Shown here: piece after piece, positions 5,772 to 38,535 of the stretch
How positions within the stretch are numbered: position 1 is the first letter of the stretch
Layout: every line of letters starts with the position of its first letter
Origin: Verrucomicrobiales bacterium
Lineage (GTDB): Bacteria; Verrucomicrobiota; Verrucomicrobiia; Limisphaerales; JACDHS01
Length of the DNA stretch: 38,535 nt
NCBI GenBank assembly: GCA_028293445.1
Contig: JAQGOU010000107.1
Location: 1 to 38,535, forward strand
Reading direction: 5' to 3'
Translations under genes and position numbers: made by a program
The notes under the pieces: model-generated
What the model saw: the letters and a program-made list of their open reading frames with translations, nothing else
Databases searched by the model: none
What the model was told of the DNA's origin: nothing

Positions 5772-5820
5772 CGTCTATCGTCTATCGTCTATCGTCTATC
5801 GTCTATCGTCTATCGTCTAT
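5772..5820. repeat. Heptanucleotide microsatellite, 7 perfect copies of CGTCTAT
   Basis: 49 nt counted as 7 x 7 with no mismatch. Confidence 0.97.
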
Positions 5821-5901
5821 GTGAGCGCAGCGAGCTCAGCGATTGGCCGACAGGTTTGGCTATTGGCAATGTGAGCGTTAGCGAGCCCGATCCGTGATCG
5901 A

Positions 5902-6188
5902 CGATTGCAGAAGAAAAATTCCGACGTTGGATCCGCGAACCACGATTGCAGAAGAAAAACTCCGACAAGGTTCCAACGAGGGTCGATTGCAGAAGAAAAT
6001 TTCCGACGTTGGATCCACGAACGGCGATTGCGGAAGAAAAACTCCGACGTTGGATCCATGAACGACGATTGCGGAAGAAAAATTCCGACGTTGGATCCAC
6101 GAACGACGATTGCAGAAGAAAAATTCCGACGTTGGATCCAAAAACCACGATTGCGGAAGAATAACTCCGACTAAATTGCGAAAAACCA
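5902..6188. repeat. Tandem repeat array, 7 units of exactly 41 bp plus partial eighth
   Basis: Unit CGATTGCRGAAGAAAAAYTCCGACGTTGGATCCACGAACGA starting at 5902, 5943, 5984, 6025, 6066, 6107, 6148; degenerate continuation at 6189. Confidence 0.96.
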
Positions 6189-6673: not shown

Positions 6674-6784
6674 AAGGGACCCGAGCCACCTCGACAAAGC
6701 AAAAGTGCCGGCTTAAGGTCAACACCTAAACCGTGATAACCAACGGTTCTGTTGCGCAATATAAATGTTAGGAACTGACAGTTC

Positions 6785-7129
6785 ATGCTTCATCCCCTTG
6801 CTAAAAAGTATCTCATCAAGTTCCTGTTTTTCTTTTGGTTTGTCGTCACGTCACCTCCGCTTTTGCTGCTTATTTGGCTTCGTCAGTCCTACCCAACCGT
6901 CGCACCAGCAATTTCATGGATTGCAATTCCCTTAGCCTTGGCTTGGCTATACGGAAGTTGGTGGCTTGCTTTGACGACCGCTCATCACATGGTCAACGAA
7001 AATCGGATGTTCCTCACCGCTGTTAAGTATACTTTTTGCGATCTAAGGTTTCGGTTGGCCTTTTTGCCGTTACTCGGTTGGTTGTTTACGCCGGACAGGG
7101 AGAACAAGCATGACGATGACGATGTCTAA
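6785..7129 (+). CDS. Small hypothetical membrane protein (possible integron cassette ORF)
   Basis: 114 aa with two hydrophobic segments; stop codon TAA overlaps the attC-like GTCTAAC box. Confidence 0.65.
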   Translation: MLHPLAKKYLIKFLFFFWFVVTSPPLLLLIWLRQSYPTVAPAISWIAIPLALAWLYGSWWLALTTAHHMVNENRMFLTAVKYTFCDLRFRLAFLPLLGWLFTPDRENKHDDDDV

Positions 7130-7185
7130 CCAACCAGATCTGTTTACCACTCGCGCGGGCTCGCTGATCCGAAGTACCGTTAGGC
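7124..7185 (+). other. attC-like site
   Basis: R''-like GTCTAAC at 7124-7130 and R'-like GTTAGGC at 7179-7185, matching RYYYAAC / GTTRRRY; 62 bp long. Inner pairing is weak. Confidence 0.5.
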
Positions 7186-7206
7186 GGCACTAAGCATCTT
7201 GACAAC

Positions 7207-7497
7207 ATGAAGCCAAACGAAATCGCCATCATCGGCATCCGGCTCGTGGGTGTCGCCTCGATTGCCTTCGGCGTGATTTTGGCATTGAGCAGCGCAGTGA
7301 TGCACGGACTGTTCCAGCTTCCAATGGCGGATACTTTCACTTCAGACCTCCATCTCCACGACACCTACTACGTCATTTCTCAGGTTCACTACGACTTGCT
7401 CGTTCCGAGTGGAGCCGGCATCGTGGTCGGAGTGTTGCTGCTTGTAATGAGTCGCCGACTTGCCCGGTTGCTTGTGCGCGGCTTAGACGTTTCGTGA
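7207..7497 (+). CDS. Small hypothetical membrane protein (possible integron cassette ORF)
   Basis: 96 aa with two hydrophobic segments, starts 21 bp after the upstream GTTAGGC box. Confidence 0.65.
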   Translation: MKPNEIAIIGIRLVGVASIAFGVILALSSAVMHGLFQLPMADTFTSDLHLHDTYYVISQVHYDLLVPSGAGIVVGVLLLVMSRRLARLLVRGLDVS

Positions 7498-7575
7498 GAG
7501 AGGACAGCGCTGCAGCCCTTCGTCCATTCTGGTTGCGTGTCCCGTGGGCTGGGTCGCTGAGTTCACCCGTTAAAC
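7481..7575 (+). other. attC-like site
   Basis: GTTAAAC (GTTRRRY) at 7569-7575; inner inverted repeat CAGCG-ctg-CAGCCC (7505-7518) pairing with GGGCTG-ggt-CGCTG (7546-7559). R'' degenerate (GCTTAGAC at 7481). Confidence 0.5.
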
Positions 7576-7646
7576 GACATCAAGCGTGAGGATTGCCAGA
7601 TTGCTTGGTCTGATCTTAGTAGAATGGCGAACATCAAAACAGAAAG

Positions 7647-7865
7647 ATGACTATGAAGAAGACCGTATCCACAGTTCTTTGGACGATCGCATCTCAGATT
7701 GTCGGCCTTGTGATATTCTTTGTTTACATCACCGATCCGCTCCGAACGCACGCTAGTCTCGTTAGTCGCCTATTCGTTATCGGATTACCTCTGCTTGTGT
7801 TGCTACTCGGCGTTCGGGGGTTATTGCCAGGCACGGGCCGCAGCAAAGATGTAGCGCACGCATGA
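7647..7865 (+). CDS. Small hypothetical membrane protein (possible integron cassette ORF)
   Basis: 72 aa, two predicted hydrophobic helices. Confidence 0.6.
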   Translation: MTMKKTVSTVLWTIASQIVGLVIFFVYITDPLRTHASLVSRLFVIGLPLLVLLLGVRGLLPGTGRSKDVAHA

Positions 7866-7872
7866 CATTGTG

Positions 7873-7965
7873 GCTTAACCATGTCCCTGACTCTAACAGC
7901 CGATTGCGTCTTTCATTCCGCTTCGCGGTTCACATCTGGGCCGGTTGTGGCTCAGGTCGTTAGCT
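7873..7965 (+). other. attC-like site
   Basis: GCTTAAC at 7873-7879 and/or CTCTAAC at 7891-7897; GTTAGC at 7959-7964; AGCC/GGCT inner pairing and CCGCTTCGCGG hairpin at 7919-7927. Confidence 0.4.
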
Positions 7966-8046
7966 GGTTTCATCCATATCGTCGCCGAACGTCGCGCGTG
8001 ACGAATAGACCTGAGCATGGTCGAATCAAATAGAAGAAGGAAAACA

Positions 8047-8241
8047 ATGAAACGAATCTCCATATTCATCGGGGTTGTGGCTGCCTTGATTGGCGTCACC
8101 GTCATCCTCCCGGCTCTTGCCAACTACGGACGTACAGGCCCGATGGCGAACGACGCACTGAAGTTTCTTCTGCTGGGAAGTCTCGTGAGCATAGCTGGTG
8201 GCAGCGCGATATTCCACGGAGTCCGGAAGCGCAAGGCTTGA
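8047..8241 (+). CDS. Small hypothetical membrane protein (possible integron cassette ORF)
   Basis: MKRISIFIGVVAALIGVTVILPALANYGRTG...; two hydrophobic segments; ATG 8047 preferred to the 8017 start. Confidence 0.6.
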   Translation: MKRISIFIGVVAALIGVTVILPALANYGRTGPMANDALKFLLLGSLVSIAGGSAIFHGVRKRKA

Positions 8242-8252
8242 AGCTACGGCGG

Positions 8253-8341
8253 GCCTAACCACTTGGAGCTGTCACGGCGGTTGAACCCAAGGACTGTGCG
8301 AACATCGTCGCCGCCGCGCAGCTCAACGGCGAGTCATAGGC
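8253..8341 (+). other. attC-like site (best of the set)
   Basis: R'' GCCTAAC 8253-8259; TTGGAGCTG (8263-8271) pairs with CAGCTCAA (8319-8326) leaving one unpaired base; GGCGG (8276-8280) pairs with CCGCC (8311-8315); degenerate R' GTCATAGGC 8333-8341. Confidence 0.55.
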
Positions 8342-8659
8342 GGCATTGTGCGTGAGGATTTGCGTTCGCCTCTGTCAATTAGGCCGCAACAACCAACATC
8401 ACATACTTCATTTGTGTCCTGAGCGTTGTATGGCTTGGAGTCGAGTCCTTACAGTTTCGTAGTCGCTGACTGTCTCAAAACGCGACACGATCGGAGAGAA
8501 GGCTCGATGGCTCCTGTTCATTTTCCAAAAAAAGATTTGTGCAAAATAAGGGGTTTTCACATCTCCGTGACTTTTGACAACACAATCCGGAATTGAGGCA
8601 TTTAAAATGCTATCCGCAAGGGTCCCCTAGTCCCTAAAACCTAAATCCATTGTGCCCTG

Positions 8660-11173
8660 ATGAAAAAATCCTTCCCACCCACTCTCGGCTTGTTGTTCTC
8701 GTCAAAAACATCATTCCCACTGATTCAAAAGCTCTTTGCGGGCGGAGCCGCAAGCAGCGATCGAAAAAGAACGGTGGGGTTTGGTGGAATGCTGGCTCTG
8801 GTTGCATTAATCCTGAGCCTGGGGACCGGAAACGCCATGGCGGTACGCGCCCTGGGAATCGACGTGTCACGCTGGCAAAACACGGTCAATTGGACGAGCG
8901 TCAAGGGTTCAGGCATCACCTTTGCCTGGGCTCAAGCCACGCGCGGCAACTATCTGACCAATAATAATTTCGTCGCCAACATGAAAAATGGCAAGACGGC
9001 TGGCGTCCTGATGAGTCCTTATCATTATGCCACCCCGGCCACGAACAGTGCGGCCACTGAAGCTAGTTATTTCTGGAACCGCGCTGGCGCCCAAATTCTG
9101 GCCGATGGGAAAACCCTCATGCCCATGCTCGATATCGAAGAGTGGAACGGCCATGTGGGCGCGAGCAGTTACTCGGAATGGGCCAACCAATGGGCCACCT
9201 GGGTTATAAACAAAGCCGCTTCCAACGGGGTCAGCATCAAAGTCGTGCTTTATTCGAGCGCCAGCTTTATGTGCAACTTTGACAGTAGTTGCTCTCAATT
9301 TGGCAGTTGGGTAGCCAATTACGGCGGCGCTCCGCAAACGGGCACGCCCTGGAGCTGTTGCACGAGTTGTAACCTTTGGGGCGGAGGCTCCTGGGATTTT
9401 TGGCAGTACTCCAGCACTGGAACGGTTCCGGGCGTGTCCGGAGACTGCGATCTCGATGTCTTCAACGGCACTGTGGCGGAGCTCTCGCCGTGGGTTGCTA
9501 CCGCTCTCAGCGCGCCGGTTATTTCGGGGGTATCGGCCGGCAATTTCTCCGACGCCGGGGCAACGATCACCTGGAACACTGACATCAGTGGTGACAGCGT
9601 TGTGAATTACGGACTGACGACTAGTTACGGCACCACGTCTTCCAACGGCACGATGGTCGTGAGTCACTCCAGAAACCTCAGCGGTTTGAACGCCTTGACC
9701 ACTTATCATTACCGCGTCAAATCCAAGAATGCTATCGGCCAGTTGTCCACCTCAGGCGATTTCACCTTTACGACTCTGGCGCCGGGACAGGTTAATGACA
9801 TTATCATCGACAATCCGCAGGCGACGTTCGTGGGCACGTGGTCCACTGCTACGTCCGCGACAGACAAATTCGGCGCGGATTATCGCTACAATGGCCAAGG
9901 CACCGGTTCGTCCTATGCGCAATTCACACCGACCATTTTGACTGCCGGCGACTATCAGGTTTACGAATGGCATTCGCAGGGCAGCAATCGCGGCTCCGAT
10001 ACGCCTCACGTGGTGACTTACAACGGTGGAACACTGACAGTGGACGTCAATCAGCAAACCGGCGGCGGCGCCTGGAATCTTCTCGGCACGTTTAATTTTG
10101 CGGCGGGTACGGCGGGCAAGGTGAAAATTACCGATGCCGTTTCCGGGGCAAGCCTCCTGGCGATGGCTGATGCCATCAAGTTTTCCTATGCTCAACCGAT
10201 CATGCCCCCGGCGGCGCCCAGCGGTTTGACGGCGACAGCCATCAGCCAGACTCAAATCAATCTCGCCTGGACGGATAACTCCGCGAACGAAGATAATTTC
10301 ATTGTCTCGCGCAGCACCACTTCCGGTGGACCTTACACCGATATTGCGACGCCGGCAGCGAACGCAACTACCTACAATAACACGACTGGTTTAAGTGCCG
10401 GCACGACCTATTATTACGTTGTTCGCGCGGCCAACACTGGCGGTTCTTCCGCCCTCTCCGCGCAGGCCAGTGCCACGACCCAATCGGCGCCCGTCCCGAA
10501 TGCTCCCAGCGGACTGACCGCCACCGCCGTCAGTGCCACCCAAATCAATCTGACCTGGACAGACAATTCATCGGATGAAAGCGGTTTCCGCGTGGAGAAG
10601 TCCACGGACAATGTGAATTTCACCCAGTTTATTTCCCTGAGCGCGAATGTGACCTCCACGTCGAGCAGCGGCTTGAACGGCAGCACGACTTACTACTTCC
10701 GTGTTCGCGCTTACAATGGCGCGGGCAACTCCGCCTATTCCAACACGGCCACCGCGACGACTCAGCCTGTCGCCGATATTATTGTCGACAATCCTTCGGC
10801 CACCGTGACCGGCACGTGGTCCACCGCCACAACTTCGACTGATAAATTTGGCGCCGATTATCGATTCAAGGCTGGAGGCACGGGAACGGCATTTGTGACT
10901 TACTCACCCAATATTCTCGTCGCGGGAAATTATCAGGTCTATGCATGGTATCCGCAGGGTGCCAATCGCACGACCGTCGCGCCTTACGTGATCAATTACA
11001 ATGGGGGTTCCGGTTCTGCCACGCTCAACCAGCAGAGCAACGGCGGCGTCTGGAATTCGATCGGAACATTTAACTTTGCGGCGGGCACAACCGGTAACGT
11101 CCGCGTTACGGACAACTTCACTGGTACCAGTGTCGTCATGGCCGACGGAATCAAATTCGTTTACGTGCCGTAA
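8660..11173 (+). CDS. Secreted GH25 lysozyme-like muramidase with fibronectin type III and two golvesin/xanthan-lyase-type C-terminal modules
   Basis: ALGIDVSRWQ..., MLDIEEW (DxE), WDFWQYSS, DLDVFNG are GH25 motifs; FnIII repeats (PSGLTATAxSxTQINLxWTDNS twice); duplicated DIIxDNPxATxxGTWSTATxxTDKFGADYR...ADxIKFxY module. Confidence 0.9.
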   Translation: MKKSFPPTLGLLFSSKTSFPLIQKLFAGGAASSDRKRTVGFGGMLALVALILSLGTGNAMAVRALGIDVSRWQNTVNWTSVKGSGITFAWAQATRGNYLTNNNFVANMKNGKTAGVLMSPYHYATPATNSAATEASYFWNRAGAQILADGKTLMPMLDIEEWNGHVGASSYSEWANQWATWVINKAASNGVSIKVVLYSSASFMCNFDSSCSQFGSWVANYGGAPQTGTPWSCCTSCNLWGGGSWDFWQYSSTGTVPGVSGDCDLDVFNGTVAELSPWVATALSAPVISGVSAGNFSDAGATITWNTDISGDSVVNYGLTTSYGTTSSNGTMVVSHSRNLSGLNALTTYHYRVKSKNAIGQLSTSGDFTFTTLAPGQVNDIIIDNPQATFVGTWSTATSATDKFGADYRYNGQGTGSSYAQFTPTILTAGDYQVYEWHSQGSNRGSDTPHVVTYNGGTLTVDVNQQTGGGAWNLLGTFNFAAGTAGKVKITDAVSGASLLAMADAIKFSYAQPIMPPAAPSGLTATAISQTQINLAWTDNSANEDNFIVSRSTTSGGPYTDIATPAANATTYNNTTGLSAGTTYYYVVRAANTGGSSALSAQASATTQSAPVPNAPSGLTATAVSATQINLTWTDNSSDESGFRVEKSTDNVNFTQFISLSANVTSTSSSGLNGSTTYYFRVRAYNGAGNSAYSNTATATTQPVADIIVDNPSATVTGTWSTATTSTDKFGADYRFKAGGTGTAFVTYSPNILVAGNYQVYAWYPQGANRTTVAPYVINYNGGSGSATLNQQSNGGVWNSIGTFNFAAGTTGNVRVTDNFTGTSVVMADGIKFVYVP

Positions 11174-11182
11174 ATCCGGGCG

Positions 11183-11407
11183 TTGACGAAGGATTGCAGC
11201 GGCAGAACCAGGAGCGTCAAAGCTCACGCGAACGCTCCTGTCCATCGCGGGCGAACAAAAACACTGGTGCCGACAGCCGACTGCGTCTTTCGTTCGGCAT
11301 CAGCGTTCGCCAGATGGCGTCTGGTTCTCTCGGCTCTATTGTCGGGAGTCGCTGTTGGCCTCGTTGCCCTCGGTTTGCGTCATTGGGTGCAGAGGGCCGT
11401 CGGTTAA
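11183..11407 (+). CDS. Hypothetical small protein
   Basis: 74 aa ORF with one hydrophobic segment (RLVLSALLSGVAVGLVALGL); no family recognised. Confidence 0.3.
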   Translation: MTKDCSGRTRSVKAHANAPVHRGRTKTLVPTADCVFRSASAFARWRLVLSALLSGVAVGLVALGLRHWVQRAVG

Positions 11408-27876: not shown

Positions 27877-27975
27877 CTTTTTTGAAAGGCTATGATATTA
27901 GGTCGCGCAAAACAATCAACCGTAGTGCAAATCGGGTGGTGGTTGAGTTGCTAATCTCCAAAGAGGGGAATGAAC

Positions 27976-28391
27976 TTTCCTAGCTTGGTGGACGTTTTTC
28001 CAGAGCGGTAAAAGACTTTCCGAGCTCGGCGGGCGTTTTTCCGGAGTGGGAAAAGAGTTTCCGAGCTCGGTGGACGTTTTTCTGGAGTGGAAAAAGACTT
28101 TCTGAGCTCGGCGGACGTTTTTCCGAAGCGGAAAAAGACTTTCTGAGCTCGGCGGACGTTTTTCCGGAGTGGAAAAAGACTTTCCGAGCTCGGTGGAGGT
28201 TTTTTCGGAGTGGAAAAAGATTTTCCAGCTCGGTGGAGGTTTTTCTGGAGTGGAAAAAGACTTTCCGAGCTCGGCGGATGTTTTTCCGGAGTGAAAATGA
28301 ACGTTCTGAGCTCGGTGGACCTTTTTCCAGAGTGAAAATGTACGTTTCGAGCTCGGAAACTCTTTTTCCAGAGTGAAAAACCCCACATTTT
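27976..28391. repeat. Tandem repeat array, ~10 units of 41 bp (one unit 40 bp)
   Basis: AGCT landmark at 27982, 28023, 28064, 28105, 28146, 28187, 28227, 28268, 28309, 28350; unit approx. GACGTTTTTCCGGAGTGGAAAAAGACTTTCCGAGCTCGGYG. Confidence 0.95.
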
Positions 28392-38221: not shown

Positions 38222-38535
38222 GACAGGAGTTTCACGCGAAACTGCTAACTTTGGGCCACCCAAAACAGGAGTTTCACGTGGAAGTGGCAACTTTGGGTCG
38301 CCCAAAACAGGAGTTTCACGTGAGAGTGGCAACTTTGGGTCACCCGAAACAGGAGTTTCACGTGAGAGTGGCAACTTTGGGCCGCCCGAAACAGGAGTTT
38401 CACGTGAGAGTGGCAACTTTGGGTCACCCGAAACAGGGGTTTCATGTGAGAGTGGCAACTTTGGATCACCCAAAACAGGAGTTTCACGTGAGAGTGGCAA
38501 CTTTGGGCGGCCAGAAACCGGAGTCTCACGTGAAA
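38222..38535. repeat. Tandem repeat array, >=7 units of exactly 42 bp, continuing past the window end
   Basis: Unit CAGGAGTTTCACGTGAGAGTGGCAACTTTGGGTCACCCAAAA starting at 38224, 38266, 38308, 38350, 38392, 38434, 38476, 38518. Confidence 0.96.

Follow-up and report, generated by a model that had tools for sequence, protein, structure and literature searches.

In Xanthomonas the integrase gene intI has been inactivated or lost lineage-wide and the cassette arrays have been kept (PMC12444791); in Halorhodospira halochloris a cluster of cassettes lacking an integrase (CALIN) occurs in a genome without intI (PMC7923331). The DNA examined here is contig JAQGOU010000107.1 of a Verrucomicrobiales bacterium (Limisphaerales; JACDHS01), analyzed over its whole length of 38,535 nt and referred to as the window. 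It belongs to a draft assembly (GCA_028293445.1) of 659 contigs, 89% complete and with an estimated contamination of 3%. We assign a probability of about 0.9 to the window containing a degenerate CALIN: decayed attC sites with no neighbouring integrase. An earlier note, written from the letters of the sequence, had proposed a CALIN at this place, and the proposal is supported by homology to attC, by the identification of ORF4 as a cassette and by the lack of IntI in the assembly.

The cluster contains four consecutive small ORFs, all on the plus strand and all coding for small membrane proteins, exactly where the earlier note had placed them: ORF1 (6785-7129; 114 amino acids), the first cassette-like gene; ORF2 (7207-7497; 96 amino acids), with an HDTYYV segment similar to cytochrome oxidase subunit 1; ORF3 (7647-7865; 72 amino acids); and ORF4 (8047-8241; 64 amino acids, or 74 if translated from an in-frame ATG upstream at 8017). 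None of the four proteins could be convincingly assigned to a family, ORF1 matching no Pfam or NCBIfam family. No relatives of ORF1 or ORF3 were found in the 195 other genomes of the order searched, so that the cassette status of these two ORFs is judged from their position; for the same reason relatives do not show the four ORFs in this order without the repeats, an arrangement that would have spoken against cassettes. For ORF2 a single stand-alone relative was obtained, in genome G534 (48%), apparently frameshifted and with no attC seen nearby; the other matches were to a segment of full-length COX1, and a separate ORF2 search matched long frames only, mostly recognisable as COX1. Plasmid relatives were sought for ORF1 and ORF2 and none were found. 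No sigma-70-like promoter was seen for the four ORFs, and the sole Rfam match at gathering thresholds was to tRNA, with none in the cluster stretch.

The attC sites share the strand of the ORFs, each site being located just downstream (3') of an ORF stop. The ORF1 stop codon (TAA) lies inside the R'' box GTCTAAC of site 1, and the stops of ORF3 and ORF4 precede the R'' boxes of sites 3 and 4 by 7 and 11 bases. The boxes listed earlier were all present: GTCTAAC (7124-7130), GTTAGGC (7179-7185), GTTAAAC (7569-7575), GCTTAAC (7873-7879), GTTAGC (7959-7964), GCCTAAC (8253-8259) and GTcaTAGGC (8333-8341).

Two covariance models were used to score the sites. Model R1 was constructed from 16 aligned attC sites of arrays near intI in other Verrucomicrobiota genomes only, which avoided circularity; a TIGR02249 search for intI was positive in 109 of the 390 phylum genomes examined, and a separate sample of 292 genomes from the order contained 100 with the gene. 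In these 16 sites the known attC layout, with R boxes, L boxes and two extra-helical positions, was paired in 92% of the cells, and 45 both-side changes were counted against a mean of 16 after shuffling, a number reached in none of 500 shuffles. At E<=0.001 no R1 match was obtained in 3 of 15 genomes of the order, which speaks for the specificity of the model. Model R2 was constructed from 63 attC sites of the own genome, the window being left out. As controls, 200 segments of the window were aligned locally to the own-genome attC sites. Within the window R1 ranked 7873-7964 first and 7124-7185 second, with 8253-8341 among the best; a strict box-matching detector with relaxed settings recovered site 1 alone of the four sites listed earlier.

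Site 3 (7873-7964) gave the strongest signal: 28.3 bits with R1 and 44.9 bits with R2, the E-values (1.6e-5 and 1.1e-9) being rough, as are all those quoted from these home-made models. Its alignment score of 122 was reached by none of the 200 controls, and it is 84% identical over 90 bases to an attC site of another contig (C38:42411-42504). The site is full length and decayed, with a mutated L'' arm and an R' box one base short. Site 1 (7124-7185) retains both outer boxes, R'' GTCTAAC and R' GTTAGGC, which match at six of seven positions by Watson-Crick pairs and at one by G-T, and has lost about 35 bases of L'' and the centre. It scored 14.7 bits (E=0.078) with R1 and 16.4 bits (E=0.041) with R2; positions 7139-7185 match the right half of attC sites in the own genome at up to 91% identity (E=1e-14), and the alignment score of the site, 78, was again reached by none of the controls.

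Site 2 (7498-7575) was detected by neither covariance model. Its L'' arm GCGCTGCAGC (7507-7516) and the L' half (CGCTGAG) are retained, as seen from the alignment of 7507-7564 to an attC site, together with an R' box, GTTAAAC. The identity to an own-genome attC site was 92% over 25 bases (blastn, E=1.7e-5) and the alignment score of 54 was reached by 0 of 200 controls. The earlier placing of an attC-like site in this stretch is upheld. The R'' box proposed for it, GCTTAGAC at 7481, is not: it falls within the coding region of ORF2, and since L'' aligns at 7507-7516, the alignment to genuine attC sites places the true R'', now eroded, near 7497-7503. Judged by these alignments, sites 1, 2 and 3 are related in sequence to the attC sites of the own genome. 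The cluster comprises three homologous sites within 0.85 kb, strong for site 3 and partial for sites 1 and 2, and one structural site.

That fourth site (8253-8341) has an R'' box GCCTAAC, paired L'' and L' arms with one extra base, and a disrupted R' box. What had been described as a hallmark arrangement of attC held for the arms, TTG(G)AGCTG and CAGCTCAA pairing exactly with one extra base, and failed for the R' box (GTcaTAGGC), which is without the AAC/GTT triplet, the one that is cut. The scores were 11.0 bits (E=0.77) with R1 and 12.2 bits (E=0.51) with R2; rescaled to the 1.6 kb stretch of the original proposal, the E-value is about 0.01, a rough figure on our own scaling. The alignment score of 34 was equalled in 39 of 200 controls, and no sequence homology to other attC sites was found; it is the structure that weakly suggests an attC. 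These values, together with the broken R' box, would also be expected if only sites 1-3 were attC remnants, site 4 being a chance hairpin and ORF4 ending at a site since lost. We consider this rather improbable: site 4 starts with GCCTAACCA directly after ORF4, which occurs as a cassette elsewhere (see below), its L boxes pair, the extra base is in the expected arm, and its predicted fold is the best of the four.

A weak site suggested upstream (about 6724-6773, ending GTTAGGA) had to be discarded: it was undetected by R1 and R2, and its alignment score of 25 was equalled in 160 of 200 controls. Conversely, an attC half-site that had escaped the earlier note was found on the plus strand at 11259-11351. 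It represents the R''/L'' side of a site of the site 3 type, with 81% identity to an own-genome attC over 43 bases (E=4e-7), an alignment score of 62 reached by none of 200 controls, and a partial R2 match of 13.9 bits at 11250-11369. Between site 4 and the half-site, and in the same direction, lies a gene with GH25, fn3 and golvesin domains (8660-11173, plus strand), which is possibly a large cassette or else a plain chromosomal neighbour. A GH25 paralogue adjoins an attC cluster on contig C439, and several other copies lie away from attC clusters. Two GH25/fn3 paralogues, this one and L141:3002-5107, each follow an attC cluster immediately and share its orientation; their homology is confined to the gene.

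With R1 and a threshold of E<=1, 62 matches were obtained in the own genome; they are distributed over about 20 contigs, many lying at contig ends. When the same genome was searched at the DNA level with positions 6680-8460 of the window, five matches were found on contig C38, four to the site 1 sequence and one to site 3 (94 bases, 84% identity). This contig carries an intact array of ten attC sites (GCCTAACCAACCGGATGCAGCGAACCCCGCG...GGGCTCGCTGATCCGGAGTATCGTTAGGC and others related to it), which are spaced by hundreds of bases and each follow a different small ORF of the same direction; R1 recovered all ten (34-71 bits). The cluster of the window is one among many in its genome.

Relatives of ORF4 were found in 13 of the 195 other genomes of the order; a search of named GTDB genomes found none. 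The relative in a genome of another family of the same order (G045, contig C231) has 45% amino acid identity, and the DNA similarity (70%) begins at 7993, upstream of the start codon. It is flanked by attC, with 94 bases for the upstream site and 33 for the downstream one, which has an internal deletion. The similarity to the window stops before these flanking sites. The G045 genome encodes IntI, with intI on another contig than the ORF4 array. Because attC sites enclose this relative, and its genome has IntI, ORF4 is identified as a real cassette. The centre of the downstream mini attC (L167:1468-1500) is missing entirely, both R boxes being kept; site 1 of the window shows a deletion of similar kind.

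Palindromic intergenic elements are common, and site 4 is without a sequence relative, as might be expected if the inverted repeats were ordinary terminators or a dispersed palindrome of the REP or MITE type with no connection to integrons. For sites 1-3 this reading is refuted by homology. It is very improbable for the cluster as a whole: the R and L boxes, the extra-helical bases and the covariation match those of attC sites adjacent to intI; the sites are found repeatedly at the borders of cassettes, enclosing different genes; in a genome that has IntI, ORF4 is flanked by attC on both sides; and no terminator-like site coincides with the sites of the window.

The earlier note had seen no integrase in the window. 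This was confirmed, and the search was extended to the whole assembly: no IntI ORF was found in the 38.5 kb and none in the assembly above the TIGR02249 cut-off. The two highest scores in the own genome were 87 and 75 bits, the cut-off being 265. Tyrosine recombinases were considered as candidates for IntI and rejected, the two best belonging to the XerD/XerC family and the others scoring far lower. With no IntI in the assembly, a complete integron, in which intI and attI adjoin the array, was not found.

A second member of the same family (G001, 98% complete) gave 43 attC matches and likewise no complete IntI. It contains three copies of a truncated 5' piece of intI (model residues 1-72), at L149:8437-8883, at L150:1616-1972 and at a contig end (L151). 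At least two of them (contigs C69 and C220) are oriented towards an attC array, the junction on that side reading GTTGGGC, and the integrase start region seems itself to have been copied. The pieces extend for about 95 codons and are followed by unrelated sequence and 42-base tandem repeats. Repeats of similar period were observed in the window: tandem arrays with units of 41-42 bases, differing in sequence, at 5899-6171, 27974-28356 and 38223-38533. At 5772-5820 the heptamer CGTCTAT occurs in seven perfect copies.

The lack of IntI could be due to the draft state of the assembly. The cluster might be a satellite of a live integron, with a functional intI present in the cell, missing from the contigs and acting in trans. 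The completeness of 89% and the attC arrays at contig ends, as seen when repeats break assemblies, are compatible with this, as are the frequency of IntI in the order (100 of 292 genomes) and the many intact attC sites elsewhere in the genome. We regard it as unlikely: the 98% complete relative has truncated pieces only, and the cluster lies well within a 38.5 kb contig with its own sites damaged. Even with a live intI elsewhere, or with a chance hairpin at site 4, the cluster of the window would still be a CALIN.

The damage was also visible in the predicted folding of the bottom strands. When compared with shuffled sequences, z was +1.56 for site 1, -0.36 for site 2, +0.39 for site 3 and -1.39 for site 4; four intact sites of the C38 array gave -1.1 to -4.1 in the same test. 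The predicted folds of sites 1-3 are thus about as good as, or worse than, those of the shuffles, and that of site 4 is moderate. None of the four sites in the window is intact. Sites damaged in this way should be poor or dead substrates for attC recombination; the folding predictions suggest that sites 1-3 are impaired, and the cluster is probably inactive at present.

The degenerate CALIN can be accounted for as follows. An integron integrase would once have inserted the small genes at this locus one after another, each with its attC at the 3' end, presumably acting on the folded bottom strands of the sites, as is known for this family of enzymes. Subsequently the lineage would have lost full-length intI, and as a consequence the sites would have drifted, which would account for the missing centre of site 1, the absent R'' box of site 2, the lost L'' arm and incomplete R' of site 3 and the broken R' box of site 4. 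The cassettes would now be fixed genes in a cluster decaying in place, site 4 being the only one of the sites that might still be able to fold.

A decayed CALIN is a further example of something already known, and the definition of the integron is unchanged. What the locus adds is a decayed integron cluster recognisable from raw sequence alone, without tools, and a family of Verrucomicrobiota rich in attC sites, in which no intact intI was found and one member has copied truncated intI 5' ends. What is most unusual concerns the genomes as a whole: in both family members examined, the own genome and G001, attC sites number in the dozens and no intact intI was found. There is a slim chance that the whole family keeps dozens of dispersed attC clusters in this state, in which case an undetected or unusual recombinase, or a role other than shuffling, may be the explanation. 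The family offers a case for studying the fate of cassette arrays after integrase loss.

Unlike the CALINs described with IntegronFinder 2.0 (PMC9024848), the sites of the window are individually damaged, and an intact intI was found neither in the assembly nor in the single family relative examined. The likeness to Xanthomonas (PMC12444791) is that arrays persist after intI inactivation or loss, some of them in the form of CALINs at a distance from the ancestral locus; the difference is that here, in Verrucomicrobiota, some 60 attC sites are spread over about 20 contigs, with no known conserved locus of the ilvD type. Halorhodospira halochloris (PMC7923331) similarly combines a cassette cluster with a genome without intI, although there it is one cluster of ten cassettes and here there are many clusters. 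A further comparison is with three genomes of the same order (G042, G109 and G045), which share with this one the attC family GCCTAACCA...GCTGCAGCGAACC...GGTCGCTGAGCTTGGGTCGTTAGGC and at least one common cassette, ORF4, but differ in that all three encode IntI, G042 and G109 with intact attC sites beside intI.
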